From positions 1 through 52,474 of the forward strand of contig CALWZG010000037.1 in assembly GCA_944385965.1 (NCBI GenBank): 52,474 bases of DNA. The letters are read 5' to 3'. The stretch comes from an uncultured Anaerotruncus sp. GTDB taxonomy: Bacteria; Bacillota; Clostridia; Oscillospirales; Ruminococcaceae. The notes below the pieces were generated by a model. That model had not been told where the DNA came from. It was given only the letters and a program-made list of their open reading frames with translations, and did no database searches. Position numbers and translations under genes: made by a program. Numbering within the stretch: the first letter of the stretch is position 1; the number at the start of each line of letters is the position of its first letter. Shown piece by piece: positions 20,202 to 35,930 of the stretch.

Positions 20202-21650
20202 TCAGTCAATGCCAGCTAGATTTTTAGCCAAATCTTTTTTAGAAGAAAGGTCGCTTTGACGAGCAATCATAATACGTTGTGCTTGAGGAGAACCAGCTCC
20301 ATGCATAGATTCTGTGAGATATCCAACCGCAGCAGTACCCAAACATAGATTTTCCAACAAGCGCAAAATCCGCAAACGATTTTCTGTGGGAATGTCTGCA
20401 ACGCCTTTCAAATATTTTTCTATATAAGGGCCAATTTTTGAATCTTTGAAATCTGCTTCACTGGGAGCGGTGACCATCAAGCCGCCAGCAATATCCTCCG
20501 CCAAACGAACAATTTCGTAGGGGTAGCGGGTGATATTTTGTTTACAGACATTGGCTAAAAGAAGGTCAATTAAATAGTTGCCGCTTTTTGTGGGACAACC
20601 TTCAGCTGAACAAGCAATTCCACAGGAAAAAAGCGTTTCGTTCAGATGGGTCATTTCAATTAATTTGTCCTTGATATGGCTGGCTTTGGAAACGCCGTTG
20701 TAGTCGGCGGCCAAAGCAGCAGCCCCAATCAGTACATCTCCCACACCAACCTTACAGCCCCCATAGCTTTGGCGATGGTAACCCGCAAAACGTTCTACCA
20801 TCATTCCTGCAAACTCAGTCTCTCCGTTTAAGAAAATCCGTTCATTTGGGATGAATACATCATCGAAAACCACCAACGCTTCCACACCGCCAAATTGAAC
20901 ATTTCCCACATCCATAGGGCAGTTTTCCAGTTTTCTGGTATCGCAGCTTTGGCGCCCAATCACCATAAAAATTCCTTTTGCGTCTACTGGAACAGCGAAA
21001 GAAACCGCATAATCCTTGTCCTCAGGTCCCATAGAGCAGGTAGGCATTATAATGAGCTCGTGAGAATTGATGGCTCCAGTCTGGTGAGCTTTGGCGCCTC
21101 TCACAATGATACCATCATCACGTCTTTCAACAACCCGCAAATATAAATCAGGGTCAGCTTGCGCATGAGGGGGAAGTGAGCGATTTCCTTTAGGGTCGGT
21201 CATAGCTCCATCCACAGTCAGATCCAGGTGTTTACAGTGCAGCATAAATTTTATAAAGTTTTCAAAATAGTGGGTGTGATATTGTTGGTCTAGTTCATAG
21301 GTGGTGCTGTATACCGCATTGAAAGCGTCCATACCAACACAGCGCTGAAAACAAGAGCCAGTTTTTTGTCCTAACAAGCGCTGCATTTTTACCTTTTTGA
21401 TTAAGTCTTCGGTGGAACGATGAATATGGGTGAACCGGTTAATCCGCTCACCTGTTTCGGGTGAGATAACCGTCATTAAATCCTGATATTCTGGAAGTTG
21501 GGCTAAATCATAGGTCATTTTAACAGAATTTAAAGATGGCCTTAAAATAGGATGTTCGGTAGGATACTGAATTTTTTTGCCGAACATATAAACTTCCATG
21601 GTTCGTTCCCGAATACTTTCCACATATTGAGAGCCTGTCATAAGCGCCAT
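20202..21650 (-). CDS. abfD: 4-hydroxybutyryl-CoA dehydratase / vinylacetyl-CoA isomerase
   Basis: This 482-residue flavin and [4Fe-4S] radical enzyme converts 4-hydroxybutyryl-CoA to crotonyl-CoA. All four cluster ligands known from the Clostridium aminobutyricum enzyme are present: C100 and C104 (GSCFQRCVG), and His then Cys seven residues later in GYHRQSYGGCKVG. Length matches the family. The frame is intact although several neighbours are damaged. A clean AGGAGG precedes the ATG. It lies downstream of the aminotransferase on the minus strand, separated by a hairpin at 21710. With the CoA-transferase, crotonase, Hbd and thiolase at 28-34 kb it forms a 4-hydroxybutyrate-to-acetyl-CoA set. 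Confidence 0.95.
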   Translation of the reverse strand: MALMTGSQYVESIRERTMEVYMFGKKIQYPTEHPILRPSLNSVKMTYDLAQLPEYQDLMTVISPETGERINRFTHIHRSTEDLIKKVKMQRLLGQKTGSCFQRCVGMDAFNAVYSTTYELDQQYHTHYFENFIKFMLHCKHLDLTVDGAMTDPKGNRSLPPHAQADPDLYLRVVERRDDGIIVRGAKAHQTGAINSHELIIMPTCSMGPEDKDYAVSFAVPVDAKGIFMVIGRQSCDTRKLENCPMDVGNVQFGGVEALVVFDDVFIPNERIFLNGETEFAGMMVERFAGYHRQSYGGCKVGVGDVLIGAAALAADYNGVSKASHIKDKLIEMTHLNETLFSCGIACSAEGCPTKSGNYLIDLLLANVCKQNITRYPYEIVRLAEDIAGGLMVTAPSEADFKDSKIGPYIEKYLKGVADIPTENRLRILRLLENLCLGTAAVGYLTESMHGAGSPQAQRIMIARQSDLSSKKDLAKNLAGID

Positions 21651-21709
21651 AGTGTTTCCTCCTGGTTAAATATTTTCATCCTTTATATAAAAAAATAGTT
21701 GATAAGTTG

Positions 21710-21740
21710 GGCCGGATGCTGATAAGCATCCGGCCTTTTT
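21710..21740. terminator. Strong GC-rich hairpin between aminotransferase and dehydratase genes
   Basis: GGCCGGATGCT pairs with AGCATCCGGCC around GATA; TTTTT follows on the plus strand only. For the minus-strand genes it lies in the spacer and may reduce or stabilise the downstream abfD message rather than fully terminate. Confidence 0.65.
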
Positions 21741-21763
21741 ATAGAGGGGAGAAGGAAGGAACC

Positions 21764-23035
21764 TTAAAATCTTTGTTTAACAGCTTTAAATGCGTCATCT
21801 GCTACATCCAAAGCGAATTTAATGTCATCTTCTGTCATAGCAGCGCAGGTAAAGTGATTATGGTGATTGGTGAGGAACACACCTCTTCTGGTACATTCAC
21901 TGGTCCAAGCCTTATGTAGATCCGCTTCAGGTCCATAATAATCCCAGCTTGTGGCATCAGGGTCCTGCAACAGATGTATATAGAACAGAGAAGGAGCAGC
22001 GGTTGTAACCATACGGTATCCATAAGAAGCGGCCAATTTTTCCAATCCATCGGTATACATTTTTCCGATTTTAAGCATATGATTGGCGGCGTCTAATTTT
22101 TTCAGCTTATCGATGCAGGCAAGCGCAGCGGCGAAAGGAGCGGCAGACATCCAATAGCTTCCGGTGTAATACACTTTTTCCACCGCGTCCCGCAAAGCGT
22201 CAATTCCGCAAAGAGCAGAAATATTCCAACCGTTGGCCAAAGCTTTGCAGAAGCACATCAAATCCGCTTTGAACCCAAAATATTTGTCCGAGCCAGCATG
22301 GTCCAAACGGAAGCCGCAGCGTACATCATCTACAATCAATACAATTCCATGCTGTGTACAAAGCTCTCTGATTCGTTTCCAATATCCCTCTGCTGGCATG
22401 GCGTTGTCCTTAAAGGCGGGCTGATAGTAGGGGGTGGAGATAAAAGCTGCAATTTCTCCAGGGTGTTCCTGAATGGCCTGCTCAAACTGTTCCAGATTGT
22501 TCCAGTCCAAATAAATATTTTGAGACTGCTCATAAGAGAATAAGCCATCCGCTGCCCCAACCTTTTGGGCCCAAGGTGCTACACCATGGTAACTGCCATT
22601 AATCATCATGATTTTCTGACGTCCGGTAGCGGCTTTGGCAACCATAATTGCCAAACTGGTTACATCGCCTCCATTTTTGGCGAAGAAAGCCCAGTCCGCC
22701 ATATCCACTGTCTCAACCATCTTTTCGGCCAACTCAATCAGTTTATAAGAAGGAGCGGTCACAGCGTTTTCCTTTTTGAGTTGTTCCATAGCGGCAGCGT
22801 CTACGTCAGGGTCGTTATACCCCAGGATATTAGGTCCGTAAGCGCACATAAAGTCTAAAAAACGATTTCCGTCTACATCATAGAAATAAGCTCCCTGAGC
22901 ATGGTCAGAAAAGATGGGATAGTGCTCCACTGGACAATAGGTTCCAACACCTTGATGCCCATAAATCCCTTTTGGAATTACTTTTTTTGCCCGCTCAAAT
23001 AATTCCTGGCTTTTTGGATAAGTGTAGGTTGTCAT
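21764..23035 (-). CDS. Class III aminotransferase, glutamate-1-semialdehyde aminomutase-like
   Basis: This 423-residue PLP enzyme resembles the glutamate-1-semialdehyde 2,1-aminomutase branch. The PLP-contacting VLIVDDVRCGFRL and lysine-bearing CFCKALANGWNISALCG motifs are present, with the N-terminal FxDxDGNRFLDF typical of the class. No tetrapyrrole genes are nearby, so heme synthesis is unlikely. Its place between transketolase and 4-hydroxybutyryl-CoA dehydratase suggests transamination in a catabolic route, with an omega-amino or 4-amino acid as substrate; this is inference. It overlaps the transketolase C-subunit reading frame by 4 bases. The frame is intact. Confidence 0.8.
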   Translation of the reverse strand: MTTYTYPKSQELFERAKKVIPKGIYGHQGVGTYCPVEHYPIFSDHAQGAYFYDVDGNRFLDFMCAYGPNILGYNDPDVDAAAMEQLKKENAVTAPSYKLIELAEKMVETVDMADWAFFAKNGGDVTSLAIMVAKAATGRQKIMMINGSYHGVAPWAQKVGAADGLFSYEQSQNIYLDWNNLEQFEQAIQEHPGEIAAFISTPYYQPAFKDNAMPAEGYWKRIRELCTQHGIVLIVDDVRCGFRLDHAGSDKYFGFKADLMCFCKALANGWNISALCGIDALRDAVEKVYYTGSYWMSAAPFAAALACIDKLKKLDAANHMLKIGKMYTDGLEKLAASYGYRMVTTAAPSLFYIHLLQDPDATSWDYYGPEADLHKAWTSECTRRGVFLTNHHNHFTCAAMTEDDIKFALDVADDAFKAVKQRF

Positions 23036-23851
23036 AAACTCGCTCCCTTCCGACGGATTACTTCCAGTGCGTTTTCAACAATATTTTCAGCGGTCATGCC
23101 AAACCGCTGGGCCAGATAAGATTGAGGTCCAACTTCTCCAAACTCGTCCTGAGACCCTATCATAGACAGAGCGCAGGACAAAGGTCCATTTAAGGCTAAG
23201 GTTCGTGCTACCGCAGCTCCAAGACCATTGAGGACACTATGATTTTCTGCGGTGACAATCGCACCAGTTTCTTTGGCGCATCTGAGGACTAACTCCTCAT
23301 CCAATGGTTTAATGGTGAAGATATCTACCACTCTGGCGGAAATCCCTTGATTTTCCAGGGTTTCCGCTGCTTTCAATGCTTCGGCCACCAAGATTCCAGC
23401 GGCGATGATGGTAACGTCTTTTCCATCCCGAAGAAGATTTCCTTATCTTCAAAAGTCATATGGGTACCACCATTGTAGGCGGTTGTGATTCCTGGGTCTG
23501 AGCCAATCAGACGAATATTTAATTTTGCGTAGGCACCAGATAGAAAGATTGAATCATAAGTGCGGCGGGTCATAAAAGGCGCAAAAGTATGGATATACGG
23601 AATCTTTCCAGTAACCGCCATACCAGCGGCAATTCCCACCAAATCCGCCTCCTGAATTCCAACATCAAAAAAGCGGTCCCCATAGGTAGCTTTCATCCAG
23701 TGATAATTGGGAGCCCACATTCCATTTCCAATATCCGCCTCACCGGCTACCACATTGGGATTTTGCGCGAATAATTTTTCAGGGTTCCAGAGTAGATTGT
23801 TTTGAAGGGAACTTGGTCGGTTGAGCCATCATATTTTAGAGTAAATCCCAT
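23032..23851 (-). pseudogene. Transketolase C-terminal subunit, broken by two frameshifts
   Basis: The reading begins at ATG 23851 (preceded by GAGGTG, 9 bases after the transketolase N stop) but needs a frame change near 23781-23790 and another near 23428-23434 to give a full family member. The pieces are intact in content: EKLFAQNPNVVAGEADIGNG, DVGIQEADLVGIAAGMA, TFAPFMTRRTYDSI, SDPGITTAYNGGTH, then GILVAEALKAAETL and NHSVLNGLGAAV. Both breaks look like one missing base. In the family this subunit carries the pyrimidine-binding domain of the thiamine-diphosphate enzyme. It is either a fresh pseudogene or a site of sequencing error. Confidence 0.85.
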
Positions 23852-23860
23852 TTTTTCACC

Positions 23861-24031
23861 TCACTTACACGCTTCCAAAGCGGCTGCCTCTGCGTAAAGA
23901 CGAGCAATTTCCTGGTCACAGGACTCTTGGGGCATGGGAATGTGGTGGTTATAATCCATTCCCTCCACAAAAGAACATCCTTTTCCTTTTTGAGTATCCA
24001 GAACAATCAAAGAGGGTTTACCTTGTTCAAC
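23861..24031 (-). pseudogene. Transketolase N-terminal subunit, 3' remnant only
   Basis: About 55 codons of the C-terminal end of the thiamine-diphosphate-binding subunit remain: GKPSLIVLDTQKGKGCSF, then VEGMDYNHHIPMPQESCDQE and a Lys-TGA end. The upstream part, including the GDG thiamine-diphosphate motif, is absent because the coding sequence runs straight into a transporter fragment on the other strand. The missing 5' end implies loss of the promoter for the minus-strand operon. Confidence 0.8.
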
Positions 24032-24983
24032 AATGCCAACTCTGTAATTGTGTCCTCTTTGTATCTTCCGCTTGTAAACCTGTTGGGCGGAGGAGATATG
24101 GCGAAAGGATTTTTCTGGGCTACCACAATTCTGGCTATGTTGGTGTTGGCGCTTCTGCTGGCTGTATTAGCTATCAGTAAAAAATATGAGCTTAATGCTG
24201 ATGGCACCAGCCGGGAACATCTGCGTTCTACCGATCATGAGAATGTGCTGAAACAGGCCAAGGATGTTTTCACCAATCGTCCCGCTATTATGCTGGTGTT
24301 AGGAATCGTTTTTCAATATATTCTGCAAGCGATTCGCAACGGCATGACCGTTTATATCTTTAACTACTATCTGGAAATTCCAAACTTTATGCCGGTAGCT
24401 ATGTTTGTCAACACCAACGCAATGGTCTTGGGCGCTTTATTGCTTCAACCCTGTATCCATATATTCAGAGATTCCAATCGGGCTTTTAAAGGAATCCTGC
24501 TGATAAGCGCTGTTGGGAACGCTTTATTCTGGGGATTGGCCACCAGTATGGGACAAGATGGTTCCGCTGGGTCCATGCAGTACGGCTCACTCTTTTTCCT
24601 GTTTGCGTTTAATGGTTTGATTACAGGTGTCCATTATGCCTTTATGCATGTGATGCTGCCCAATGTAATCGAATATGGCGCCTGGAAGACTGGAAAAATA
24701 TCAGCCTGGAATGATTTACGCTTTAAACGCCATTTGTTTAACTTTGGGTGGAGCGATTGGCGGACAGGTTATGGGAATTTTGCTGGATGGCTCTGGCTAT
24801 GTGGCAAATCAGACACAGACCCCTGAAACACTTTCCAACCTTTTGTTTATTGCTTTTATGGTGCCAGCAATTTTGACAATGGTTCAGTTTGGAACCCAGT
24901 GTTTCTATGGCCTGACAGATAAACAATGCGCCAAATGTGTGGAGGAAGTTCAAAAAAGAGCCCACGCGGCGGCGGGTTCCTGA
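24032..24983 (+). pseudogene. GPH-type sugar:cation symporter, 5'-truncated and frameshifted
   Basis: This is the C-terminal two thirds of a glycoside-pentoside-hexuronide symporter (MelB-like, major facilitator fold). Hydrophobic segments include ATTILAMLVLALLLAVLAI and SLFFLFAFNGLITG, and the hallmark cytoplasmic motif NVIEYGAWKTGK is present. The frame then shifts at an A-run near 24692; removing one A restores GKYQPGMIYALNAICLTLGG through to the normal end. The first third is missing at the junction with the transketolase remnant. A substrate cannot be assigned; hexuronides or other sugar acids are typical of the family. Confidence 0.8.
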
Positions 24984-25006
24984 GCAAAAACAATTTAAGT
25001 CTGAAT

Positions 25007-25043
25007 CGTTATCTCGGAAGGAGCGCTTCCTTCCGGGATAACG
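25007..25043. promoter_or_regulatory. 16-pair inverted repeat upstream of Lrp-type gene
   Basis: CGTTATC-T-CGGAAGGA pairs with TCCTTCCG-G-GATAACG around GCGCT. No T tract follows on either strand, so it is not a standard terminator. It could be an mRNA hairpin or an operator, since it lies about 45 bases before the Lrp-type regulator gene. Confidence 0.5.
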
Positions 25044-25087
25044 GACAAGGAGAAAGGGAGGATTCCATAAAATTAGGAGGCAAATGA

Positions 25088-25545
25088 ATGGATTCTACCG
25101 ATATTAAAATCTTAGCCTATCTTAAAAAAACGCGCGCATGAACGCCTCCATTATTGGTGAGCGAATCAACATGTCGGTTTCCGCAGTCATAGAAAGAATA
25201 AAAAAACTGGAGAACACAGGAATTATTAAACAATACAGCGCCATTCTGGACCATAAAAAAATAGGAAAAGATATGATGGCCTATGTGGCGGTGCGGATAG
25301 AACATCCCCAATATAACGATGCCTTTTCAGCCAATATTATTGGAAATCCTGAGATTTTGGAGTGCCATTATATTACCGGAGACTTTGATTTTCTGTTGAA
25401 GGTGGTCACCAATTCCAGTAAGGACCTAGAACGCGTTTTATATGATATCCGCTGTATCCCTGGTGTTTCCCGAACAAGAACATTGGTTGTCCTTTCTACA
25501 TTTAAAAATGATGTGACAGCGCTTCCCGATGGAGGGCCTTTTTAA
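25088..25545 (+). CDS. Lrp/AsnC-family transcriptional regulator with an early frameshift
   Basis: The start at 25088 (AGGAGG 7 bases upstream) gives MDSTDIKILAYLKK, the usual beginning of an Lrp helix-turn-helix domain, then stops at TGA within 18 codons. Adding one A to the seven-A run at about 25124-25130 restores LKKNARMNASIIGERINMS and the rest of a normal regulator of about 152 residues, including the RAM ligand domain (ECHYITGDFDFLLKVV). Internal ATG 25138 could give a protein lacking part of the DNA-binding domain. It probably controlled the catabolic genes beside it. The homopolymer makes slippage, phase variation or a sequencing error all possible. Confidence 0.8.
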
Positions 25546-25609
25546 TTTGAAAAATGATGACAATACGTCATTTTATAAGGAGCAAAACTTAAATAAGGAG
25601 GAATTTGTA

Positions 25610-27538
25610 ATGTTAATTGGTATTCCAAAAGAAATCATGCATGGTGAAAATCGAGTGGCTGCTACCCCCGAAACTGTAGAAAAATTTGTAAAAGAAGGAT
25701 TCGCGGTATTGGTGGAAAAAAGAGCTGGTGAAGGTTCATTTTACAGTGACCAGCAATATGAAGCCGCTGGCGCCAAGCTGGTAGAGGATGTATGTGACCT
25801 CTACAATCAAGCGGAAGTCATCCTAAAAGTAAAAGAACCTCTCTTTAATGAGCAAAAACAAAAACATGAGATTGAGCTGATGCATGCAGGTCAATATCTG
25901 ATTACCTTCATTCACCCCGCTTCTCCTGTCAATCATGAGATGGTAAGAATGATGGCGAAACAGGGCATTATAGGATTGACTTTGGATGGGGTGCCCCGCA
26001 TTTCCAGAGCGCAAAACATGGACTCCCTCACCTCTATGTCTACATGCGCCGGATATAAAGGCATTTTGATGGCGGCCAATGACCTGGAAAAATTTGTACC
26101 ACAGATTTTCTGCGCAGTTGGAGCGATTAAACCTTGCAATATTATGGTCATTGGTGTGGGTGTAGCCGGACTTCAGGCGTTGGCAACGGCCAAACGACTG
26201 GGAGCGGTCACTTACGCTGCGGATATTCGTCCAGCTGCTGCTGAACAGGCCCAATCCTTAGGCGCCAAAATTATAGAGACTGGTGTGCCAGCAGATATCG
26301 CTGTTGGACAGGGTGGATACGCCAACCGTCTGCCAGAGGAATGGATTTTGAAAGAAAGAGAAGCGCTGAAAGAGACCATCGCAAAAATGGATGTGGTATT
26401 CTGTTCCGCTTTGATTCCAGGCAAGCAGGCTCCGGTTCTGATTACAGACGAGATGGTAGCTTCTATGGCGCCAGGTTCGGTCATTGTGGATATTTCCATC
26501 GACCAGGGCGGAAACTGCGAGAGTACAGTTCCAGGAGAGCGGGCAGTGAAACATGGAGTGATTATTGAGGGAATCAAGAATATTCCTGGTATGCTGGCCG
26601 CAAGTTCTACATGTTTAGCAGCTTTGGCTTCCTGTGGAAGTGTTGCCTTATTTGGATTTTCACAGATTCAACTGCCATTGCTGATTGGCTTCTGTATCTT
26701 GGTCAGCGGCCTGTTTGGAGTAGCCTTTTCTATCCGAGTGGGTGGTGCTGATATGCCCATCACAATTTCTTTGTTGAATTCTCTCAGCGGAGTAGCGGGT
26801 GCAATTGCAGGTATGGCAATCAGTGACCTGCTGTTGGTATCCGTTGGAGGGGTAGTAGGGGCTTCCGGGCTTTTGCTCACCCAAATTATGTGCAGAGCCA
26901 TGAATCGAAGCTTGATGGACATTCTTTTGGGAAAAACCTCTGTACCTCAAAAATCAGCAGGTAAAGACTCTTCGCAGCAACCTGAATCTGTCCCTTCCTC
27001 CAAACCGTTGACATCTGATTTACAACAGAATAATGCTCCAGAAGTTTTGCTTACCAACGCCAAAAAGGTAGCCATTGTTCCAGGATATGGAATGGCGTTG
27101 GCACAGGCTCAAAGTCTGGTAAAACAGCTGGCGGATACCTTGGAGGCCAGAGGAACAGAAGTATTCTTCGCAATCCATCCAGTAGCGGGAAGAATGCCCG
27201 GTCATATGAACGTCTTGCTGTGTGAGGTGGACGTACCTTATGAGAAGCTGCATGAGATGGAGGAGGTAAACCCTTGGTTCAGTCAGTGTGATGTGGCGGT
27301 AGTGATAGGGGCCAATGATGTAATCAATCCGGCGGCGAATACCGCAGAGGGAACGCCGATTTATGGGATGCCGGTTTTGGATGTGGCAGCGGCTAAACAT
27401 ATCATTGTCTGCAACTATGACTTGAAGCCAGGTTATGCAGGCGTGGAAAATCCCTTGTATTCCCAAAAGGAAACGGTAACCCTGTTATTGGGGGACGCCA
27501 AGGAAACTCTCACAAACTTAATAAATGCGATACGATAG
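25610..27538 (+). CDS. Fused, internally deleted NAD(P) transhydrogenase (PntA domain I joined to PntB C-terminal part)
   Basis: Proton-pumping transhydrogenase passes hydride between NADH and NADP+. Residues 1 to about 335 are the NAD-binding domain I of PntA (IGIPKEIMHGENRVAATPE; GVGVAGLQALATAKRLGA). After ASSTC the sequence becomes the last part of PntB: a few membrane helices (LPLLIGFCILVSGLFGVAFS; VGGADMPITISLLNS) and the NADP-binding domain III (PGYGMALAQAQS; HPVAGRMPGHMNVLL; GANDVINPAA). The PntAB helices and about 200 residues of PntB are absent, yet the frame is open, giving 642 residues. Start ATG 25610 follows AAGGAGG. Without most of the channel, proton pumping is unlikely. It could be a deletion artefact. 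Confidence 0.8.
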   Translation: MLIGIPKEIMHGENRVAATPETVEKFVKEGFAVLVEKRAGEGSFYSDQQYEAAGAKLVEDVCDLYNQAEVILKVKEPLFNEQKQKHEIELMHAGQYLITFIHPASPVNHEMVRMMAKQGIIGLTLDGVPRISRAQNMDSLTSMSTCAGYKGILMAANDLEKFVPQIFCAVGAIKPCNIMVIGVGVAGLQALATAKRLGAVTYAADIRPAAAEQAQSLGAKIIETGVPADIAVGQGGYANRLPEEWILKEREALKETIAKMDVVFCSALIPGKQAPVLITDEMVASMAPGSVIVDISIDQGGNCESTVPGERAVKHGVIIEGIKNIPGMLAASSTCLAALASCGSVALFGFSQIQLPLLIGFCILVSGLFGVAFSIRVGGADMPITISLLNSLSGVAGAIAGMAISDLLLVSVGGVVGASGLLLTQIMCRAMNRSLMDILLGKTSVPQKSAGKDSSQQPESVPSSKPLTSDLQQNNAPEVLLTNAKKVAIVPGYGMALAQAQSLVKQLADTLEARGTEVFFAIHPVAGRMPGHMNVLLCEVDVPYEKLHEMEEVNPWFSQCDVAVVIGANDVINPAANTAEGTPIYGMPVLDVAAAKHIIVCNYDLKPGYAGVENPLYSQKETVTLLLGDAKETLTNLINAIR

Positions 27539-27551
27539 GAGGGAAACCATC

Positions 27552-28712
27552 ATGAGCTGGTTATATTCACATATTGGCGCCCCCATTCTGATGGGGTGGG
27601 AAGCCTCTAAGGAAGTTGGTCTCAAGGCAAAAGAATTGGGATGCAGAAAGGTATTCTTGGTACATGACCAAAATTTAAAGGATATAGGGCTTTTGGATGA
27701 TATTATAAATTCTTTAGAGGAACAACAGATTCAATACTGTTCTTTTGATGGAGTACAGCCAGATCCGCCAGATGTGGTGGTGGAAGCTGCTGCTGAACTA
27801 GCCAGAAATCAGCAAATAGATGGAATTATAGCGGTAGGAGGGGGAAGCGCAATTGATACCGCCAAAGCGGTTAATGTATTAATGAGAAATCCTTCCCCCA
27901 TTCATCAGTATCTTCGGCCAGGCTTGACCCTAAATCCTGGAGTACCCTCCATTTTTATTCCCACCACTGCTGGTACAGGCAGCGAGGTCACCAGCATTTC
28001 GGTCATTACCGACACCCTTCATGACCAGGAAAAGCGGTCGGTGAATAATCCGGTTTGTTTGGCTTCCCTGGCGGTGATAGACCCTCAGTTGATGATGGGG
28101 ATGCCGCCTTCTCTGACTGCTTCCACAGGAATGGATGCTTTTGCCCATGCGGCGGAGGCGCTTACATGTGCAATGGCCAATCCTTTGATGAACGCCTTTT
28201 GCCGAGAAGCCATCCGCATGATTTCTCAGAATTTATCCAAGGCAGTGAAGGATGGACAGAATCGGGAAGCCAGAGAAAATATGGCTTATGCTTCCACCAT
28301 TGCGGGAATCGCCTTCACCAATGTAAGGGTTCATGTGGGCCACTCTATTGGGCATGTTTTGGGAGCGGCTTATCATGTTCCCCATGGAGTCGCCTGCGCC
28401 ATTGCGATTCCGCCAGTCATTCGTTGGGCCAGTAAATGGGTCCCCCAGCAGGTAAGAATGATTGGAGAGGCTATGGGCTGTCAAATTCCTCAGGACGCTT
28501 CAGACGCTGAAATTGGAAAAATCACCGCTGACGGGATTCAAAAACTGAAACATGAGATACAGATTCCCTCCATGAAAGACTTAGGGTTTGATTGGGAAAC
28601 AGTTAAAAATCTGGTGCCGCTGATTCGGCAGCAAGGAGCGTTTGTGGCCAAACCAGGGGAAATTTCGGATGAAGAACTGCTGGCCATTCTTCAGGAAGCT
28701 TATGAGCAATAA
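27552..28712 (+). CDS. Iron-containing alcohol dehydrogenase (possible 4-hydroxybutyrate dehydrogenase)
   Basis: This 386-residue group III alcohol dehydrogenase carries NAD-binding GGGSAIDTAKA, the FIPTTAGTGSEVTS segment and metal-binding GMDAFAHAAEA and GHSIGHVLGAAYHVPHG histidines. The family includes 4-hydroxybutyrate and 1,3-propanediol dehydrogenases. Given the 4-hydroxybutyryl-CoA genes around it, interconversion of 4-hydroxybutyrate and succinic semialdehyde is the likely role, but this is contextual. The start follows AGGAGGG by 8 bases. It lies 13 bases after the transhydrogenase and 12 before the thiolase, so the genes form one operon. The frame is intact. Confidence 0.85.
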   Translation: MSWLYSHIGAPILMGWEASKEVGLKAKELGCRKVFLVHDQNLKDIGLLDDIINSLEEQQIQYCSFDGVQPDPPDVVVEAAAELARNQQIDGIIAVGGGSAIDTAKAVNVLMRNPSPIHQYLRPGLTLNPGVPSIFIPTTAGTGSEVTSISVITDTLHDQEKRSVNNPVCLASLAVIDPQLMMGMPPSLTASTGMDAFAHAAEALTCAMANPLMNAFCREAIRMISQNLSKAVKDGQNREARENMAYASTIAGIAFTNVRVHVGHSIGHVLGAAYHVPHGVACAIAIPPVIRWASKWVPQQVRMIGEAMGCQIPQDASDAEIGKITADGIQKLKHEIQIPSMKDLGFDWETVKNLVPLIRQQGAFVAKPGEISDEELLAILQEAYEQ

Positions 28713-28724
28713 TTAGGAGGATTT

Positions 28725-29933
28725 ATGAAGAGATGTGTAATTACCAGCGCAGCACGGACTCCTGTTGGAGGCTATTTGGGAAGCTTAAAAACGGTTGAGG
28801 CCCAGGATTTATGCAAGCTGGTCATTTCTGAATCCATACGCCGTTCTCAATTGGAAGGGTCTCAGATAGAAGAAGTGATTATGGGAGACGTTTATGGGTA
28901 TACCCCCAATGTGGCGCGTTGTGGTGCGTTGTTGGCGGGAATACCTGAAAGAGTCCCAGCTTTTACCGTAGACAGATAATGCGCTTCCTCGCTGCAAGCG
29001 GTTATCAGTGCTTCTCACGAAATTGGGGCGGGAGAAGCGAAAATAGTGGTAGCTGGCGGAGTAGAAACCATGTCCAGGATGCTTTATTATCTGCCTCCAT
29101 CCGCCCGTTATGAAGGTTTTCGTATGGGAAACGCCAATCTATATGATGCTTTTTCCCATGGAGTGACTATGGTGCAGCCAGAGGCTCTTTATCCTGGATT
29201 GAATATGGGGCTTACAGCAGAAAATGTAGCTGAAAAATATGGAATCACCCGGGAAGAACAGGACAATTTCGCTTTTGACAGTCAACGTAAAGCGGCGGAG
29301 GCCATCCGTTTGGGAAAATTTAAAGAGGAGATTGTTCCAGTAGAGGTGCGGGTGCGACGGGATAGCTTTGTTTTTGATCAAGATGAGCATCCTCGTCCTG
29401 ATACCACAAAAGAATCCTTGGCAGGACTGCGCCCTGTCTTTAAAAAAGGAGGAACTGTAACCGCTGGAAACGCTTCGGGAATGAACGATGGAGCCTCTGC
29501 GGTTGTGGTGATGGAGGAGGAAGCGGCTGTTCAGGCAGGCATCAAGCCTTTGGTAAAAATTTTATCCAGCGCTACGGTGGGTGTTGACCCCAGCATTATG
29601 GGCATAGGCCCTGCGCCAGCCATCAAAAAAGCTCTGGAAAAAGCAGGACTCCAATTAGAGGATATGGATTTAATTGAGTTAAACGAAGCCTTTGCCGCCC
29701 AGGCTTTAGGTGTACTGAGAGAACTAAAAATTTCTGTGGATTCTCCACTTTATGAAAGAATCAACGTAAATGGAGGAGCCATCGCTTTGGGACATGCGTT
29801 AGGAAATAGCGGCACCCGACTGCTTACTACACTTATCTATGAACTGCGAAGAAGAAAGGCCAAATATGGACTGGTTTCTTTATGCATTGGAGGTGGAATG
29901 GGGTCTGCTATGATTGTGGAAAATTGTTTTTAA
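28725..29933 (+). pseudogene. Acetyl-CoA acetyltransferase (thiolase) interrupted by an in-frame TAA
   Basis: This is a family-length thiolase (about 402 codons) that would split acetoacetyl-CoA to two acetyl-CoA. The reading is broken by TAA at 28977-28979, immediately before the catalytic cysteine codon: the sequence reads PAFTVDR-stop-CASSLQAV. The rest is intact, with NEAFAAQALGVLRE, GGAIALGHALGNSGTR (catalytic His) and SLCIGGGMG (second Cys). Only one base change (CAA or TTA to TAA) is needed to explain it. A downstream ATG at 29046 would give a product without the nucleophile. It is a recent nonsense mutation or a base error. Confidence 0.88.
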
Positions 29934-29946
29934 AGGAGGGGATTTT

Positions 29947-31260
29947 TTGGATTGGAGTCAGCTGTATGAGCAGCGCAAAATGACACCTCAGGAGGCAGTA
30001 TCTCAATTTGTACAGGATGGAGATGGGGTCTTTCTTGGAGGATTGGCCATTGCGGAAGCCACCATGAAGGAGGTAATCGCTCAGGCAAAAAGAGGAGAAA
30101 AAAAGGGGCTGACACTCCATGGCAACTTGATTCTGAATCAGCTTCCTTTGGATGACCCAGAACTTACACCAGATAAACTGCGGTATAAATGCTTTTTTTA
30201 TGGAGGATACGAACGGGCAGGGTCCAAATATGGAAGCGTCACCTTTGTTCCGCTGCAATTTAGTTCCTTCGCTCGCTATATGGAACAAGTAAAGCCTGAA
30301 GTTGTGATTATTCCGGTTACTCCTCCAGATGCCCACGGAAATTGCAACATTGGTCCTCTAAGCGCTGGATATAATCCAGCAGCGGTAAGAAACTGCAAAA
30401 CCATCATAGCGGAAGTAAATGAATTCCTTCCAAGAGTATTTGGACGTGAACTGGATATACCAGTACATCGGATCTCCGCCTTTGTAGAGCATCATCAGCC
30501 GATTATTGAATATCCAGCCTCATCTCCTTCCAAAATTGATGCAGCGATTGCCAATTACATTTTAGATATGATTCCAGATGGAGCCTGTATACAGTTGGGT
30601 TTAGGCGGTATGTCAAACGCTGTGGGTTATGGATTAAAGGAGAAAAAACATTTAGGAATCCATACAGAGATGCTTACCGAATCCATGATTGAACTCATTA
30701 AGTGCGGTGCGGTGGATAACAGCCGCAAAGGTTTTATGCCAGGCCGTTCTTTGGTAAGTTTCACTTTGGGTAAACAATCCCAATATGATTTTGTGAGAGA
30801 AAATCCAGCGCTGTATTTTGGACCTTACGAATATGTAAATGATGTGAGCCTTATTGCTCAAAATGACAACATGATTTCTATTAATACAGCGATTTCAGTG
30901 GACCTTACAGGACAAGCCTGCTCAGAAAGCATTGGATTTCGTCAGTTCAGCGGAACGGGAGGACAGGTGGACTATGTGAGAGGTGCCAGCTACGCAAAAG
31001 GAGGCAAATCTTTCTTGGCCATATCCTCCACAGTGGAAACAAAAACTGGTGTGGCGTCCAGGATTGTTCTGGATTTCCCCATTGGCGGCACTACGACCAC
31101 TTTACGCTCTGAAACGCAATATGTGGTTACCGAATATGGATGTGCGAAACTTTGGGGGGAGGATTTGCCAACCAGAGCCAAACGTTTGATTGAAATTGCC
31201 CATCCTGATTTTAGGGACCGTCTCACCTTTGAGGCGAAAAAAGCCCACCTGCTGTACTGA
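29947..31260 (+). CDS. 4-hydroxybutyrate CoA-transferase-like (acetyl-CoA hydrolase/transferase family)
   Basis: This 437-residue protein belongs to the Cat1/Cat2/AbfT family, which moves CoA from acetyl-CoA to a carboxylic acid through a glutamyl-CoA intermediate. The catalytic glutamate lies in LGIHTEMLTES, with the glycine-rich IQLGLGGMSNAVGYGL before it and GGQVDYVRGA after. I chose TTG 29947, 5 bases after AAGGAGGGG; an upstream ATG at 29914 lies inside the thiolase end. Together with abfD it would activate 4-hydroxybutyrate, though butyrate or other acids are possible substrates. It is in the same operon as the neighbouring dehydrogenases. Confidence 0.88.
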   Translation: MDWSQLYEQRKMTPQEAVSQFVQDGDGVFLGGLAIAEATMKEVIAQAKRGEKKGLTLHGNLILNQLPLDDPELTPDKLRYKCFFYGGYERAGSKYGSVTFVPLQFSSFARYMEQVKPEVVIIPVTPPDAHGNCNIGPLSAGYNPAAVRNCKTIIAEVNEFLPRVFGRELDIPVHRISAFVEHHQPIIEYPASSPSKIDAAIANYILDMIPDGACIQLGLGGMSNAVGYGLKEKKHLGIHTEMLTESMIELIKCGAVDNSRKGFMPGRSLVSFTLGKQSQYDFVRENPALYFGPYEYVNDVSLIAQNDNMISINTAISVDLTGQACSESIGFRQFSGTGGQVDYVRGASYAKGGKSFLAISSTVETKTGVASRIVLDFPIGGTTTTLRSETQYVVTEYGCAKLWGEDLPTRAKRLIEIAHPDFRDRLTFEAKKAHLLY

Positions 31261-31275
31261 TTGGAGGTAACGATT

Positions 31276-32061
31276 ATGAGCTATTCTACAATTCTGTTTG
31301 AAATCAAGGAACAGGTAGCCATTATTCGTTTGAATCTTCCAAAACAGTTGAATGCTTTGACCAACCAGATGATAGATGATTTGATGGGAGCCTGTGAAAG
31401 AATTACAGAATCTCAGGAAATTCGGGCGGCTGTAATTACAGGAATGGGCAAAGGATTTTGCGCTGGTGGGGATTTGGAGGAGCTAAAAACCTGCTAAGGT
31501 GGTCCTGTTGGATTTGCCCGTCATATGGAACGAGTATCTAGGTTGATGATAGCTTTGGATGAGCTTCCAGTGCCGCTGATTGCGGCGGTGAATGGGGCAG
31601 CGGTAGGTGCTGGAATGAACATTGCTCTTTGTGCGGATTTGGTAATTGCCTCTGAAAAGGCGAAATTTTCAGAAATTTTCGCGAATATTGGGTCGGTTCC
31701 CGATTTAGGTGGTACCTATTTTTTACCCAGATTGGTGGGCAGGCAGCGCGCAAAAGAGTTAATCTTTTCAGCACGGATGGTGTCAGCGGAGGAAGCCTTG
31801 CATTTAGGCTTGGTAACCCAAGTGGTTGCGCATGAACAACTGGAAGAGACCGTTTTGGCCTTGGCCGAAAAACTTGCCAAGGGCCCCACAAGCGCATACG
31901 CACTGGCTAAAAAGCTGGTTAATAAAAGCTTTGAAATCAGCTTGACCGCCGCTTTGCATGATGAGGGAATGGCCCAAGCCATCAGCGGCAGTTCTCAAGA
32001 CTTCCAGGAAGGACTGGCCGCCTTCCAGGAAAAACGACCCGCAAATTTTCAAGGCAGATAA
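31276..32061 (+). pseudogene. Crotonase-family protein (PaaG-like) interrupted by an in-frame TAA
   Basis: This is a 261-codon enoyl-CoA hydratase/isomerase family member with TAA at 31495-31497 (codon 74) after GDLEELKTC; the frame continues normally afterwards. The oxyanion-hole regions are GKGFCAGGDLEEL and AAVNGAAVGAGMN. The usual first hydratase glutamate is Asn (GMNIALCADL), while SVPDLGGTYFLP carries an Asp as in PaaG-type isomerases, so it may isomerise rather than hydrate. Start ATG 31276 has GGAGG 8 bases upstream. As with the thiolase, one base change explains the stop. Confidence 0.85.
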
Positions 32062-32074
32062 AAGGAGGCCTCAT

Positions 32075-32863
32075 ATGGAAGGGAGAAAAGTATACTGCCG
32101 GAAAGAACGAACAGCAGGAATCATTACCATCGATAACCCGCCGGTCAATGTTTTGGATACACAGGTTACCTCTGAGCTTCGGGAATGTCTTTGCCAACTG
32201 AGAGATGACCCGCAAGTCATCACCATCATCATAACCGGCGCGGGACGAAAAGCTTTTATGGCGGGAGCGAATATCAAAGGGTTTCCACAGATGATAGGAA
32301 AACCAGGGGTAGCCTATGATTTTTTGTATTCGGTCTATGAAGTTTGGTACCTTTTAGAAAATTTAAAAAAGCCAACCATTGCTGCAATCAATGGTTTGGC
32401 TTTAGGAGCGGGTTTGGAGCTGGCGCTCAGCTGTGATTTGCGGGTGATGGCTCAGGACGCTCAACTGGGTCTTCCAGAGATTAAATTGGGCCTGTTTCCA
32501 GGTGGAGGCGGTACCCAAAGATTGACTCGATTGGTGGGCCAGGGAGTAGCCAAGGAATTGATTTTTACAGGCGAGCCTGTATCAGCTCAAGACGCCTTGC
32601 GTTTAGGAATCGTAAATCAGCTTACGCAGCCAGGAGAAGAACTGGAAACCGCTATGGGTTTAGCTGATAAGATGGGAAAATTCTCCTTGGTGGCGTTAGG
32701 AGCGGCCAAACAAGCAATCAACGGTGGAGCCAATATAAACAGCCTGCGGGAAGCCATCGACCTGGAAGCAAACCTTTGGCAGCAGGTGTTCATGAGTCAA
32801 GATGTAAAAGAAGGTGTGGACGCTTTTATGCAGAAACGGGCCCCTGTCTTTCACCATTGTTGA
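32075..32863 (+). CDS. Enoyl-CoA hydratase (crotonase)
   Basis: This 262-residue crotonase adds water to crotonyl-CoA, giving 3-hydroxybutyryl-CoA. Both catalytic glutamates are present: in LGAGLELALSCDLR and in LGLPEIKLGLFPGGGG. The start follows AAAGGAGG by 6 bases. It lies between the PaaG-like gene and hbd in the same operon and supplies the hydration step after 4-hydroxybutyryl-CoA dehydratase. The frame is intact. Confidence 0.92.
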   Translation: MEGRKVYCRKERTAGIITIDNPPVNVLDTQVTSELRECLCQLRDDPQVITIIITGAGRKAFMAGANIKGFPQMIGKPGVAYDFLYSVYEVWYLLENLKKPTIAAINGLALGAGLELALSCDLRVMAQDAQLGLPEIKLGLFPGGGGTQRLTRLVGQGVAKELIFTGEPVSAQDALRLGIVNQLTQPGEELETAMGLADKMGKFSLVALGAAKQAINGGANINSLREAIDLEANLWQQVFMSQDVKEGVDAFMQKRAPVFHHC

Positions 32864-32884
32864 TTAAAAAAGGAGTGTATCGCT

Positions 32885-33739
32885 ATGAAACAAGTTTTTG
32901 TGATGGGGTCTGGCGTTATGGGGCGAGGAATCGCTCAAGTAGCGGCGACTTCTGGGTATGAAGTTACATTGTATGATGTGTCGCAAACCGCGTTAAAAAG
33001 CGCATTGGATACAATCGGATGGTCGCTTGGAAAATTGAAGGAAAAAGGAAAGATTCAAGAGGAGCCAGAAAAAATTCAGGCCAGAATTTCCACGGTGACA
33101 GAGCTGACAGATGTGGAAAAGGCGGAGATTGTGATTGAGGCGATTCCTGAAAACCGTGCGCTGAAAGAAAAGCTGTTTCAAGAATTGGATCAACGCTGTG
33201 GGGAACATACCTTATTAGCTTCCAATACATCCGCGATACCCATTACAGAATTGGCCTGCGCCACCAAACGACGGGAAAAAGTGGTGGGACTGCATTTCTT
33301 TAATCCGGTGCCGATGATGAATATGGTGGAAATTGTTCGAGGGCAGGATACCTCAGACGAAACGATAGAAACGGCAAAATCTTTTGTAACCTCTTTGGGG
33401 AAAAAATATTGTTTGGTGCAGAGGGATGTAGCCGGATTTGTGATGAATCGTATTGGTATTTGCAGCTCCATAGAAGCCATTCGAATTTTGGAAGAGGGCG
33501 TAGCTACCGTGGAGGAGATTGACCAAGGGATGCGCATGGCCTATGGATGGTCTATGGGCCCTCTTGAAACTTTTGATTTGTCTGGACTGGATGTGGCCTT
33601 AAACGCTGCTTTGGCCATTTACGAGGAAACACAAGACCCTAAATTTTTACCTCCAGTTACCTTACGCCGATTGGTGGCTTCTGGAAACTTGGGGCGCAAG
33701 ACAGGTAAAGGATTCTATGATTATACCCTTAAAAAATAA
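32885..33739 (+). CDS. hbd: 3-hydroxybutyryl-CoA dehydrogenase
   Basis: This 284-residue NAD(P)-dependent enzyme interconverts 3-hydroxybutyryl-CoA and acetoacetyl-CoA. The Rossmann motif is VMGSGVMGRGIAQVA, the catalytic region LASNTSAIPITELA and LHFFNPVPMMNMVEIV (His), and the C-terminal domain ends RKTGKGFYDY. Length is normal. It is the last gene of the 25-34 kb operon and is followed by a bidirectional terminator. Confidence 0.94.
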   Translation: MKQVFVMGSGVMGRGIAQVAATSGYEVTLYDVSQTALKSALDTIGWSLGKLKEKGKIQEEPEKIQARISTVTELTDVEKAEIVIEAIPENRALKEKLFQELDQRCGEHTLLASNTSAIPITELACATKRREKVVGLHFFNPVPMMNMVEIVRGQDTSDETIETAKSFVTSLGKKYCLVQRDVAGFVMNRIGICSSIEAIRILEEGVATVEEIDQGMRMAYGWSMGPLETFDLSGLDVALNAALAIYEETQDPKFLPPVTLRRLVASGNLGRKTGKGFYDYTLKK

Positions 33740-33747
33740 TCATTTAG

Positions 33748-33786
33748 CAAAGAGGCCTGGCTTTGTATAGAAGCCAGGCCTCTTTG
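33748..33786. terminator. Bidirectional intrinsic terminator between hbd and bilS
   Basis: CAAAGAGGCCTGGCTT pairs with AAGCCAGGCCTCTTTG around a 7-base loop. It lies between two converging operons and probably serves both. Confidence 0.85.
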
Positions 33787-33804
33787 CGGAGGTGCGTATT
33801 TGAT

Positions 33805-34293
33805 TTAGAAGCTGTCCAGAATCTTGCCTTTCAGCTGGTTCAGGTCCTCCTGATTGGGATGAGATAATGCGGCATCAAAATTGTCCAGCATTGCCTGTCT
33901 GGCCGGGGTGTCTTCCATAGACTCATAACGGAGCCGCACAGCGGGAGGCATCTTTCCCTGACACATATAAGTTCCCACGATGGTCACAGTAGGGCTGATA
34001 AATTCCTGAACAGAGGTAAGAATCTTCTGAAAATAAGCGTCAGAACCGCCAAATCCCGCGGTACCAAACAGAAAAACCTTCTGATTGGTCAGGCTGGACA
34101 AAAACTTGGCGGTCTCATCATCACAACGTCCCTTATCAGTCCAGAACCCCACATAAATTTGCTGTGCTTTTAGAGCGTCTGAACAGGGAGCCCCAAAATA
34201 AAGCAGATTTTCCTCTGGCAAAAGCTCTCGAGCCGCCTGGGCCAAAAGCTGTGTGTTTCCTGTTTTGCTGCTGTAAACAATGGCATAATTCAT
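33805..34293 (-). CDS. bilS: Flavodoxin-family protein BilS
   Basis: This 162-residue flavodoxin-like protein has the FMN phosphate loop YSSKTGNTQLLAQAA at its N-terminus and the VFLFGTAGFGGS loop in mid-chain. It overlaps bilR by 4 bases, so the two are translationally coupled. In described bilirubin-reducing gut bacteria a flavodoxin-like gene (bilS) lies beside bilR and is thought to aid electron supply. Here that fits well, because BilR lacks a C-terminal pyridine-nucleotide domain. The order MarR, reductase, flavodoxin is as described for bilQRS. Confidence 0.82.
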   Translation of the reverse strand: MNYAIVYSSKTGNTQLLAQAARELLPEENLLYFGAPCSDALKAQQIYVGFWTDKGRCDDETAKFLSSLTNQKVFLFGTAGFGGSDAYFQKILTSVQEFISPTVTIVGTYMCQGKMPPAVRLRYESMEDTPARQAMLDNFDAALSHPNQEDLNQLKGKILDSF

Positions 34294-35405
34294 TTTGTTT
34301 TCGTCCTTTCATAAATACAATGTACCCCCTGATGAGCCATCATGCCTCCCAGACATTTTTGATTGCAGCGGATACAGCGCTGAATGGTTTCCGGCTGGTT
34401 CTCCAATACCTTTTTGGGCCAGTTGGGGTCAGCGATAAGCTGACGGCTCATGGCGGCGCAGTCAATGCGTCCGCTGGAAAGCTGATTTTCGATAAACTCA
34501 GGGTTGCTCAGTCCACCGACACCGCAGATGGGAAGTTTCGTGAAACGGCGTACCAAGTTACAGAACTTCAGAAAACATCCCTCGCCTCCGAAATCGGGAT
34601 GGCGGGCTGGGGGAATGGTGTCGGTGAGAGAGCCATGATTGGCCAGGGTGACATGGAAGCTGGTGACGCCAGCCTGTTCCAGCAGCGGAATCCAGATGGG
34701 AAGCTCCTGCTCCAGAATCCCAGCGTTGCCATAATGGGGATTTTCTTGGCGAATTGCCAGTTTATAGTCAATGGGGATGCTGGGCAAACGGCGCCGCACA
34801 GCTTGAATGGCCTCCACTGCGAAACGTGCCCTGTTTTCTGGGCTGCCCCCATAGGCGTCGGTTCGATGATTGTAGATGGTGGAGCTAAAGCTGCCACACA
34901 TCCGGTCCCCATGAATCTGAACCATATCAAAGCCAGCTTTTTGTGCCAGTACAGCGGCTTCTCCAAAGCCCTCAATGATTTTGTGGATTTTTTCAGGGGA
35001 TAGATTGGTGATGTATGGTCCAACCTCTTGATTGAGCAGTTCCCGCAGCTGTTCCATACTGATTTTTTTGGACAGCACACCAGGGATATATTTCAGCATT
35101 CCCTTTAGATTGGAGTCGGATTGATGGAGCTGGGCGCAGAGCATACAGTTTTCCTCATGAACCGCCCTAGCCAATCGCTGATAGGTCTCAAAGCCCTTTT
35201 TGCTGTACAAGGATAGCCCAAACCCATGTTTGGTGACAGGAACATCCCCAACAATAATCATGGCGCATCCACCAGCGGCAATCTGACGCAGCCGCTCAAT
35301 CCATTGTTCGGTGGGAAGTCCCATAGAGGTAGGGGCAAAAATAATGCGGTTTTTTAAAACCAGTCCGCCGTAATCAATGGGACTGTGGATGGTCTGGTAA
35401 CTCAT
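34290..35405 (-). CDS. bilR: Old yellow enzyme-family reductase, probable bilirubin reductase BilR
   Basis: This 371-residue TIM-barrel flavoprotein of the NADH:flavin oxidoreductase family most likely reduces bilirubin to urobilinogen in the gut. The FMN-barrel start LVLKNRIIFAPTSMGLP is clear. At 165-168 it reads HGDR, matching the motif I recall as diagnostic of BilR over other family members, at nearly the same position. At 344, 347, 351 and 363 it has cysteines spaced CX2CX3CX11C, as in the 4Fe-4S site of 2,4-dienoyl-CoA reductases, but the FAD/NADPH domain that follows there is absent. It overlaps bilQ by 32 bases and bilS by 4. A plain enoate reductase role is the alternative. Confidence 0.85.
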   Translation of the reverse strand: MSYQTIHSPIDYGGLVLKNRIIFAPTSMGLPTEQWIERLRQIAAGGCAMIIVGDVPVTKHGFGLSLYSKKGFETYQRLARAVHEENCMLCAQLHQSDSNLKGMLKYIPGVLSKKISMEQLRELLNQEVGPYITNLSPEKIHKIIEGFGEAAVLAQKAGFDMVQIHGDRMCGSFSSTIYNHRTDAYGGSPENRARFAVEAIQAVRRRLPSIPIDYKLAIRQENPHYGNAGILEQELPIWIPLLEQAGVTSFHVTLANHGSLTDTIPPARHPDFGGEGCFLKFCNLVRRFTKLPICGVGGLSNPEFIENQLSSGRIDCAAMSRQLIADPNWPKKVLENQPETIQRCIRCNQKCLGGMMAHQGVHCIYERTKTK

Positions 35406-35814
35406 CTGAGGAAAATCTCCCTTTCTTAATTTTTTTCAAAATAGTGCGTAGCTCTTCCTTTTCATCTGAACTCAGGTCCTTCAAGGCCAGTTCATCCCAG
35501 TCAAAAAATACCTGATGGCTGATTTGAAAGGCTTCCTGCCCCTTTTCGCTCAGGTCCAGATGATAGGCCCTCCCACGCTTTTCCCGTGTCAGAAATCCAT
35601 CCGATACCAGCTTTAAAAGGCTCCGCTGGCAGTATCCCCAGTCCAGTCCAAGGGCTGTGGTTAGCTCCCCTTGGGAACATCCAGGGTGTTTGCCAATATA
35701 AATGAGGAGAAACAGTACCCCGTAACTGAGCCCCAGCTGCTGGAGACGATGGGAGGTATAAGCGAAAAAATCCCGATATAAAACTGTAAACTGGTAGGAT
35801 AAGGTGTCAAACAT
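35374..35814 (-). CDS. bilQ: MarR-family transcriptional regulator BilQ
   Basis: This 146-residue winged-helix protein has the MarR layout: LLIYIGKHPGCSQGELTTAL, the recognition helix region GLDWGYCQRSLLKLVSDGFL and the wing LTREKRGRAYHLDLSEKG. It is the first gene of the bil operon and overlaps the reductase gene by 32 bases. Two near-identical palindromes overlap its promoter, so it very likely represses its own operon and responds to a ligand, perhaps bilirubin or a related aromatic compound; the ligand is inference. Confidence 0.88.
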   Translation of the reverse strand: MFDTLSYQFTVLYRDFFAYTSHRLQQLGLSYGVLFLLIYIGKHPGCSQGELTTALGLDWGYCQRSLLKLVSDGFLTREKRGRAYHLDLSEKGQEAFQISHQVFFDWDELALKDLSSDEKEELRTILKKIKKGRFSSDELPDHPQSH

Positions 35815-35832
35815 AAAGCGTTCTTCCTTTCA

Positions 35833-35849
35833 ACTTGACTTAGTCAAGT
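35833..35849. promoter_or_regulatory. Palindromic operator 1 of the bil operon
   Basis: ACTTGACT-T-AGTCAAGT is a perfect 17-base palindrome that overlaps the downstream edge of the -10 element. It is a likely MarR (BilQ) binding site. Confidence 0.75.
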
Positions 35850-35875
35850 ATAAATCAAAAGCTTGACTTAGTCAA
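35847..35875 (-). promoter_or_regulatory. Promoter of bilQRS
   Basis: On the minus strand TTGACT and TATACT are separated by 17 bases, about 35 bases before the bilQ start. The -35 lies inside operator 2 and the -10 abuts operator 1. Confidence 0.8.
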
Positions 35876-35876
35876 G
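35862..35876. promoter_or_regulatory. Palindromic operator 2 of the bil operon
   Basis: CTTGACT-T-AGTCAAG repeats the 15-base core of operator 1 exactly, centred 28 bases away, and covers the -35 element. Confidence 0.75.
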
Positions 35877-35892
35877 TGTGAATTTTAAAAAT

Positions 35893-35924
35893 GAAAGCCA
35901 GCGTTTTTATAAACGCTGGCTTTC
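35893..35924 (-). terminator. Intrinsic terminator of the purine operon
   Basis: GAAAGCCAGCGTTT pairs perfectly with AAACGCTGGCTTTC, followed on the minus strand by ATTTTTAAAA. It lies 7 bases past the purL stop and just upstream of the bilQ promoter. Confidence 0.92.
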
Positions 35925-35930
35925 ACAGAT

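Follow-up and report, generated by a model that had tools for sequence, protein, structure and literature searches.

A bilQRS operon predicted for bile-pigment reduction and twin palindromes as candidate operators of its regulator BilQ

The window, that is, the whole 52,474-nucleotide stretch analysed here (contig CALWZG010000037.1 of an uncultured Anaerotruncus sp.), carries three overlapping genes, bilQ-bilR-bilS, on the minus strand at 33805-35814. A preliminary description had placed a MarR-type regulator, an Old Yellow Enzyme reductase and a flavodoxin here, overlapping in this order; all three genes were found in place, and their identities are backed by NCBI curated equivalog models (NCBIfam), since each product scored above its cut-off. 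The genes, their motifs and the flanking repeats are as follows.

35374-35814, minus strand: bilQ, MarR-family regulator, 146 aa (NCBIfam NF045593, 151.3 bits, cut-off 125)
34290-35405, minus strand: bilR, short-type bilirubin reductase, 371 aa (NCBIfam NF045592, 549.8 bits, cut-off 425)
33805-34293, minus strand: bilS, flavodoxin-like protein, 162 aa (NCBIfam NF045594, 213.3 bits, cut-off 155; Pfam Flavodoxin_3)
34902-34913, minus strand: HGDR codons, BilR residues 165-168 (from the sequence)
34317-34376, minus strand: CX2CX3CX11C codons, BilR residues 344-363, predicted [4Fe-4S] site
34252-34272, minus strand: SSKTGNT codons, BilS residues 8-14, likely FMN-phosphate loop (from the sequence)
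33747-33787, no strand: perfect 17-bp inverted repeat in the gap on which hbd and bilS converge, likely a shared terminator
35892-35925, no strand: perfect 15-bp inverted repeat that separates the end of purL from the bil promoter, the likely terminator of purL

The role given to the BilS loop is the one known from flavodoxins. The overlaps of 32 nt between bilQ and bilR and of 4 nt (ATGA) between bilR and bilS make translational coupling likely. By these sequences, the window carries the known three-gene bilQRS operon, whose predicted role is to reduce bile pigments.

Elsewhere in the window, 20202-33739 holds a butyrate-route-like cluster with an HpaB-like protein, which we take to be possibly a 4-hydroxybutyryl-CoA dehydratase, an iron alcohol dehydrogenase, a thiolase, a butyryl-CoA:acetate CoA-transferase-like protein, two enoyl-CoA hydratase-like frames and a 3-hydroxybutyryl-CoA dehydrogenase. 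In the 669-aa frame at 25529-27538, a match to transhydrogenase alpha (model positions 1-326 of 510) is followed by one to the C-terminal portion of transhydrogenase beta (192-459 of 460), and by these matches the frame reads as a fused, shortened form of the enzyme. A HisZ-HisG fusion of 527 aa is encoded by a single frame at 48712-50295.

The HGDR motif, the cysteine cluster site and the lack of a nucleotide-binding domain that had been noted in the reductase were all recovered. All 84 of the BilR open frames that were examined contain HGDR. The four cysteines (C344, C347, C351 and C363) align with the C-x2-C-x3-C-x11-C of 1ps9; the same pattern occurs in 79 of the 84 frames, and in three others (L065, L072 and L074) CX2CX2C replaces it. 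The structure model of BilR has pLDDT values below 50 across residues 347-371 and is therefore uninformative on the cluster. The sole Pfam match is PF00724 (residues 7-338), with no NAD(P)H or FAD domain, so that the FAD and NADPH domains following the barrel in 2,4-dienoyl-CoA reductases are missing from this 371-aa protein. A short HGDR reductase with a flavodoxin partner agrees with PMC10769871, in which the long bilR of R. gnavus and two short bilRS sets, from C. symbiosum and C. difficile, were cloned into E. coli, and short BilR is monophyletic. One protein (P0081) is a 531-aa BilR-BilS fusion with both parts above the NCBIfam cut-offs; as a single member on one 5-kb contig, it is possibly a sequencing error, and no argument here is built on it.

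The assignment of the reductase to the BilR clade also held in a phylogenetic tree, a quick one with long-branch warnings from which the R. gnavus and C. difficile BilRs were left out. A branch with an SH-aLRT of 99 had on one side 82 short BilRs, with the window's BilR and that of C. symbiosum ATCC 14940 in their number; on its other side were one long BilR and 10 Old Yellow Enzymes of other kinds. The C. symbiosum strains among the tested bilirubin reducers of PMC10769871 and PMC13252198 are others than ATCC 14940.

Of the proposed conversion of bilirubin to urobilinogen, the identity of BilR stands, by clade and by HGDR; the urobilinogen endpoint is too strong a claim, as no second Old Yellow Enzyme was found in the genome. 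The assembly (2.34 Mb in 72 contigs, 95.8% complete) gave a single PF00724 match, BilR itself, and no BilV, so the complete BilR-plus-BilV pathway appears to be lacking; at this completeness and contig number, bilV could sit in an assembly gap. According to the preprint PMC13252198, BilR reduces methine bridges only, and bilV is carried by 0.4% of bilR-short species. From the missing BilV and this limit on BilR, the predicted product of the window's BilRS is divinyl-urobilinogen and not urobilinogen. The apparent absence of bilV thus predicts which urobilinoid the species makes.

BilR above the cut-off was found in 4 of 61 genomes, the window's own included, and in 0 of 10 genomes of the same genus; bilQRS is therefore patchy among relatives, which need not mean transfer. 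The G+C content of bilQRS (0.496) is close to that of the window (0.508), which argues neither for nor against transfer. A bilQRS-free junction beside purL was not found in the 10 same-genus genomes within 1.5-kb flanks, and tblastn of hbd, crt, bilS, purD and the CoA-transferase near purL in these 10 congeners gave 0 matches, so that no empty site can be demonstrated.

Upstream of bilQ, two copies of CTTGACnnnGTCAAG, spaced by 28 bp, lie across the predicted -35 and -10 elements of the bilQ promoter. The stretch covered by the preliminary description ends at a palindrome edge (35876) and its last 43 bases hold both copies, which went unmentioned there.

35862-35876, no strand: candidate operator 1, CTTGACTTAGTCAAG, covering the -35
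35834-35848, no strand: candidate operator 2, CTTGACTTAGTCAAG, overlapping the end of the -10 and the predicted transcription start
35870-35875, minus strand: predicted -35, TTGACT, inside operator 1
35847-35852, minus strand: predicted -10, TATACT, its last two bases inside operator 2

The promoter-like TTGACT-17-TATACT on the minus strand has 10 of 12 consensus matches, and the bilQ ATG lies at 35814. From this placement, which recurs at most of the related operons examined (below), the two palindromes are likely to be sites where BilQ would bind and keep the genes off.

To see how far this arrangement is shared, we turned to 84 loci, in 75 of which bilQ adjoins bilR; one (L100) is cut by a contig end, leaving 74 upstream regions, a number that counts the window and the L003/L075 duplicate. 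At least one CTTGACnnnGTCAAG site (three mismatches or fewer) was present in 72 of the 74 regions, as a pair 27-29 bp apart in 63 (53 at exactly 28 bp) and as a single site in nine; only L079 and L095 had no site at this threshold. In 200 shuffles of the 74 regions, a mean of 4.47 regions had at least one site and 0.005 a pair. Where the spacing is 28 bp, in 53 regions including the window's, the palindrome arms carried 1.68-1.93 bits per base and the DNA between operator 1 and the -10 a mean of 0.27 bits. The -35 in this alignment was TTGACT in 38 and TTGACA in 13 regions, and the -10 was TATACT in 46.

A further sample was drawn by BilQ: 295 genomes of the order were searched with the BilQ model, regardless of bilR, and the best 11 matches above the cut-off, one per genome, were followed up (four, the window among them, were in the earlier set; a twelfth, G274:C15, got no locus). 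All 11 genes had a site with at most one mismatch, and seven had a pair. Among the 19 next-best BilQ relatives below the cut-off that had a locus, none had a site of this quality and none had a pair; one had a site with two mismatches and two a site with three. The locus L155 (1431-2498) consists of a perfect operator pair, bilQ and bilS, with no bilR found in the fetched flanks; its genome, G274, has two BilQ genes above the cut-off.

The nine loci of the 84 without an adjacent bilQ allowed us to ask whether the sites go with BilQ or with bilR. A pair precedes bilR in L028, L029, L044, L073 and L101 and a single site in L099; no site was found before bilR in L004 (a long BilR), L054 (about 160 bases of upstream sequence only) and L086. 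BilQ was then sought elsewhere in nine genomes (that of L004 left out, and G094, which has an adjacent bilQ, included). A relocated bilQ above the cut-off was found in G067, G068, G083, G093 and G108, with its own pair just upstream in four of the five and a single site in G093; the bilR left behind likewise has a pair in four cases and a single site in one. Where bilQ has moved, operator copies therefore stand at both places, and the pairs in G067 and G083 had been flagged by the genome-wide pattern scan before BilQ was sought. No BilQ above the cut-off was found in G105 (L101), G106 (L054) or G107 (L086). In L054 and L086, this goes with the lack of a site before bilR; L101 is the exception, with a pair before bilR and a best BilQ-like match of 62 bits.

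The scan for the pair pattern (three mismatches or fewer) was run on the whole genomes to which 45 of the 80 retrieved loci belong and gave 44 matches in 40 genomes, compared with 8 for the reversed control. Forty of the 44 lay inside the fetched bil loci, 39 of them within 700 nt before bilR and one (the second of L029) at a relocated bilQ. The other four were before the relocated bilQ genes of G067 and G083, upstream of a G094 gene whose product is a 108-aa hydrophobic protein, and in G075, where the match has three mismatches and looks like chance. In 61 relatives, the pattern at this threshold was hardly commoner than its reversed control (9 versus 7); with at most one mismatch there were three pair matches, in G000, G018 and G030, which are the only ones of the 61 with a short BilR above the cut-off. 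The window's own genome has no further perfect single site and two one-mismatch sites (C44 and C72) as against 11 for the reversed control, so we claim no other BilQ target in it. In L108 (1623-1665), an operator pair with an embedded promoter precedes the hydrophobic-protein gene of G094, the genome that also holds the bilQRS of Gemmiger sp. An120, and the pair of G018 lies in the same place; this gene is a possible extra BilQ target.

Apart from bilRS, a second gene recurs next to bilQ. In four operons (L141, 1500-2550; L112, L157 and L158, about 1430-2470), bilQ and the gene for a 184-aa protein stand behind the twin operator, with no bilR in the fetched stretch. The predicted fold of this partner is that of T-type phycobilin lyases (CpcT): in the models, it resembles CpcT/CpeT (4o4o, 4o4s and 5hi8) in fold at 10% identity and, unlike them, has no Pfam entry for the at least 120 homologues listed. 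With Pfam PF06206, 8 of 31 family members match weakly (best E 0.015), and the first member has no match. The family has a 46% identical member in the window's own genome (L147, 1489-2043; G000:C53:115667-116206), with no operator site in the fetched 1.5-kb flanks. Among the literature matches listed, there was no paper on gut relatives of CpeT/CpcT. On balance, we lean towards BilQ being a dedicated bile-pigment sensor that acts through one conserved twin operator (CTTGACnnnGTCAAG in two copies at 28 bp) on a regulon wider than bilirubin reduction. In other genomes, this regulon would include the family of small proteins that resemble cyanobacterial phycobilin lyases in fold, and through which gut-type bacteria would bind or carry bilins. 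It was the operator mark that led to this unnamed family, a candidate for a second bile-pigment function.

For bilQRS itself, our main reading, to which we give a probability of roughly 0.86, is that BilR and BilS reduce methine bridges and that BilQ represses the operon through the twin palindromes until a bile pigment releases it. BilQ would be a repressor sensing a linear tetrapyrrole; occupying both palindromes, it would shut out RNA polymerase, and on release, with a bile pigment as the likely signal, BilR and BilS would be made together. Reduced BilS would then pass electrons to the predicted [4Fe-4S] cluster at C344/C347/C351/C363 and on to FMN, from which a hydride would go to the bridge carbons, with the proton coming from D167/R168. 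PMC10769871 reports D166/R167 as critical, from a double mutant of R. gnavus BilR. The substrate would be the methine bridges of bilirubin or biliverdin.

As to which of the two, it is possible, if the less probable choice, that biliverdin is the main natural substrate, as in the guts of birds, with bilirubin secondary. The preprint PMC13252198 has C. difficile BilRS acting on biliverdin and short BilR dominant in birds, and names of poultry type (such as gallinarum, pullicola and merdavium) are attached to several of the 80 retrieved loci; on the other side, the same enzyme type reduces bilirubin in both PMC10769871 and PMC13252198. The signal could also be something other than a bile pigment, such as a flavin, the redox state or a drug-like compound, with bilRS as one of several uses of BilQ, and the operator pair before the 108-aa hydrophobic-protein gene of L108, in one genome, would fit this. 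MarR proteins often sense aromatics or oxidants. We nevertheless regard such a signal as unlikely, because the second recurring partner folds like the bilin lyases, of which one was solved with phycocyanobilin, and both partner types, BilR/BilS and the lyase-fold protein, point to linear tetrapyrroles.

That BilR instead belongs to a fatty-acid setting, as an ordinary reductase of the enoate or dienoyl-CoA kind, might be thought from the thiolase, CoA-transferase-like, enoyl-CoA hydratase and 3-hydroxybutyryl-CoA dehydrogenase genes at 29046-33739. These neighbours, however, lie on the opposite strand behind the 17-bp inverted repeat, and a reductase with HGDR, no NAD(P)H domain and a place inside the BilR clade makes this very improbable. 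We give as little credence to the palindromes being RNA hairpins (a terminator or an attenuator) in place of operators: the 35862-35876 copy was flagged as terminator-like on both strands, but it sits on the -35, upstream of the predicted transcript, conservation is seen in the arms and the -10 and not in the stretch that joins operator 1 to the -10, and the sites accompany bilQ when it relocates.

In the literature searched, CTTGACnnnGTCAAG twice at 28 bp with a tie to BilQ was not found. A bil operator or promoter is described in neither PMC10769871 nor PMC13252198 (the word 'operator' occurs once in the main text of the former, for the lac operator of a construct). Among the literature matches listed, the palindrome string appeared only in an unrelated plant-virus paper, and there was no regulatory study of bilR with MarR. 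Bilirubin sensing by gut bacteria appears to be little covered, BilQ being named in the literature searched by one paper, twice. The candidate operator lends itself to a simple binding experiment and offers a DNA mark by which genes under BilQ control can be found in any genome; a biosensor for bilirubin could also be made from it.

Compared with the bilQRS operons of C. symbiosum and C. difficile in PMC10769871, the window's operon has the same three genes, with a short HGDR BilR, a separate BilS and a MarR-type BilQ, in a different species. The best-matching segment of C. symbiosum ATCC 14940 BilR is 61% identical to the window's BilR. The window's candidate operators are perfect palindromes, whereas the pair before C. 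symbiosum bilQ (L089, about 156-198) has diverged, with 2 and 3 mismatches at 27 bp apart, so that operator and BilQ may have drifted in step. With the long BilR of the R. gnavus type (PMC10769871), the window's BilR shares the catalytic barrel and HGDR; in the long form, the flavodoxin-like and NADP(H)-binding domains belong to a single polypeptide, whereas the window has a separate BilS and no NAD(P)H domain. BilV (PMC13252198) is likewise an Old Yellow Enzyme of the same pathway, but has AHAH and reduces vinyl groups, while the window's BilR has HGDR and is predicted to act on methine bridges. Relative to 1ps9, it has HGDR in place of the region with the catalytic tyrosine and is without the FAD and NADPH domains. 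In autoregulated MarR-family repressors, the regulator gene comes first in its own operon and palindromes lie on the -35 and -10; the window's bilQRS resembles these systems in both respects, with bilQ first in the operon and the palindromes on the two promoter elements.
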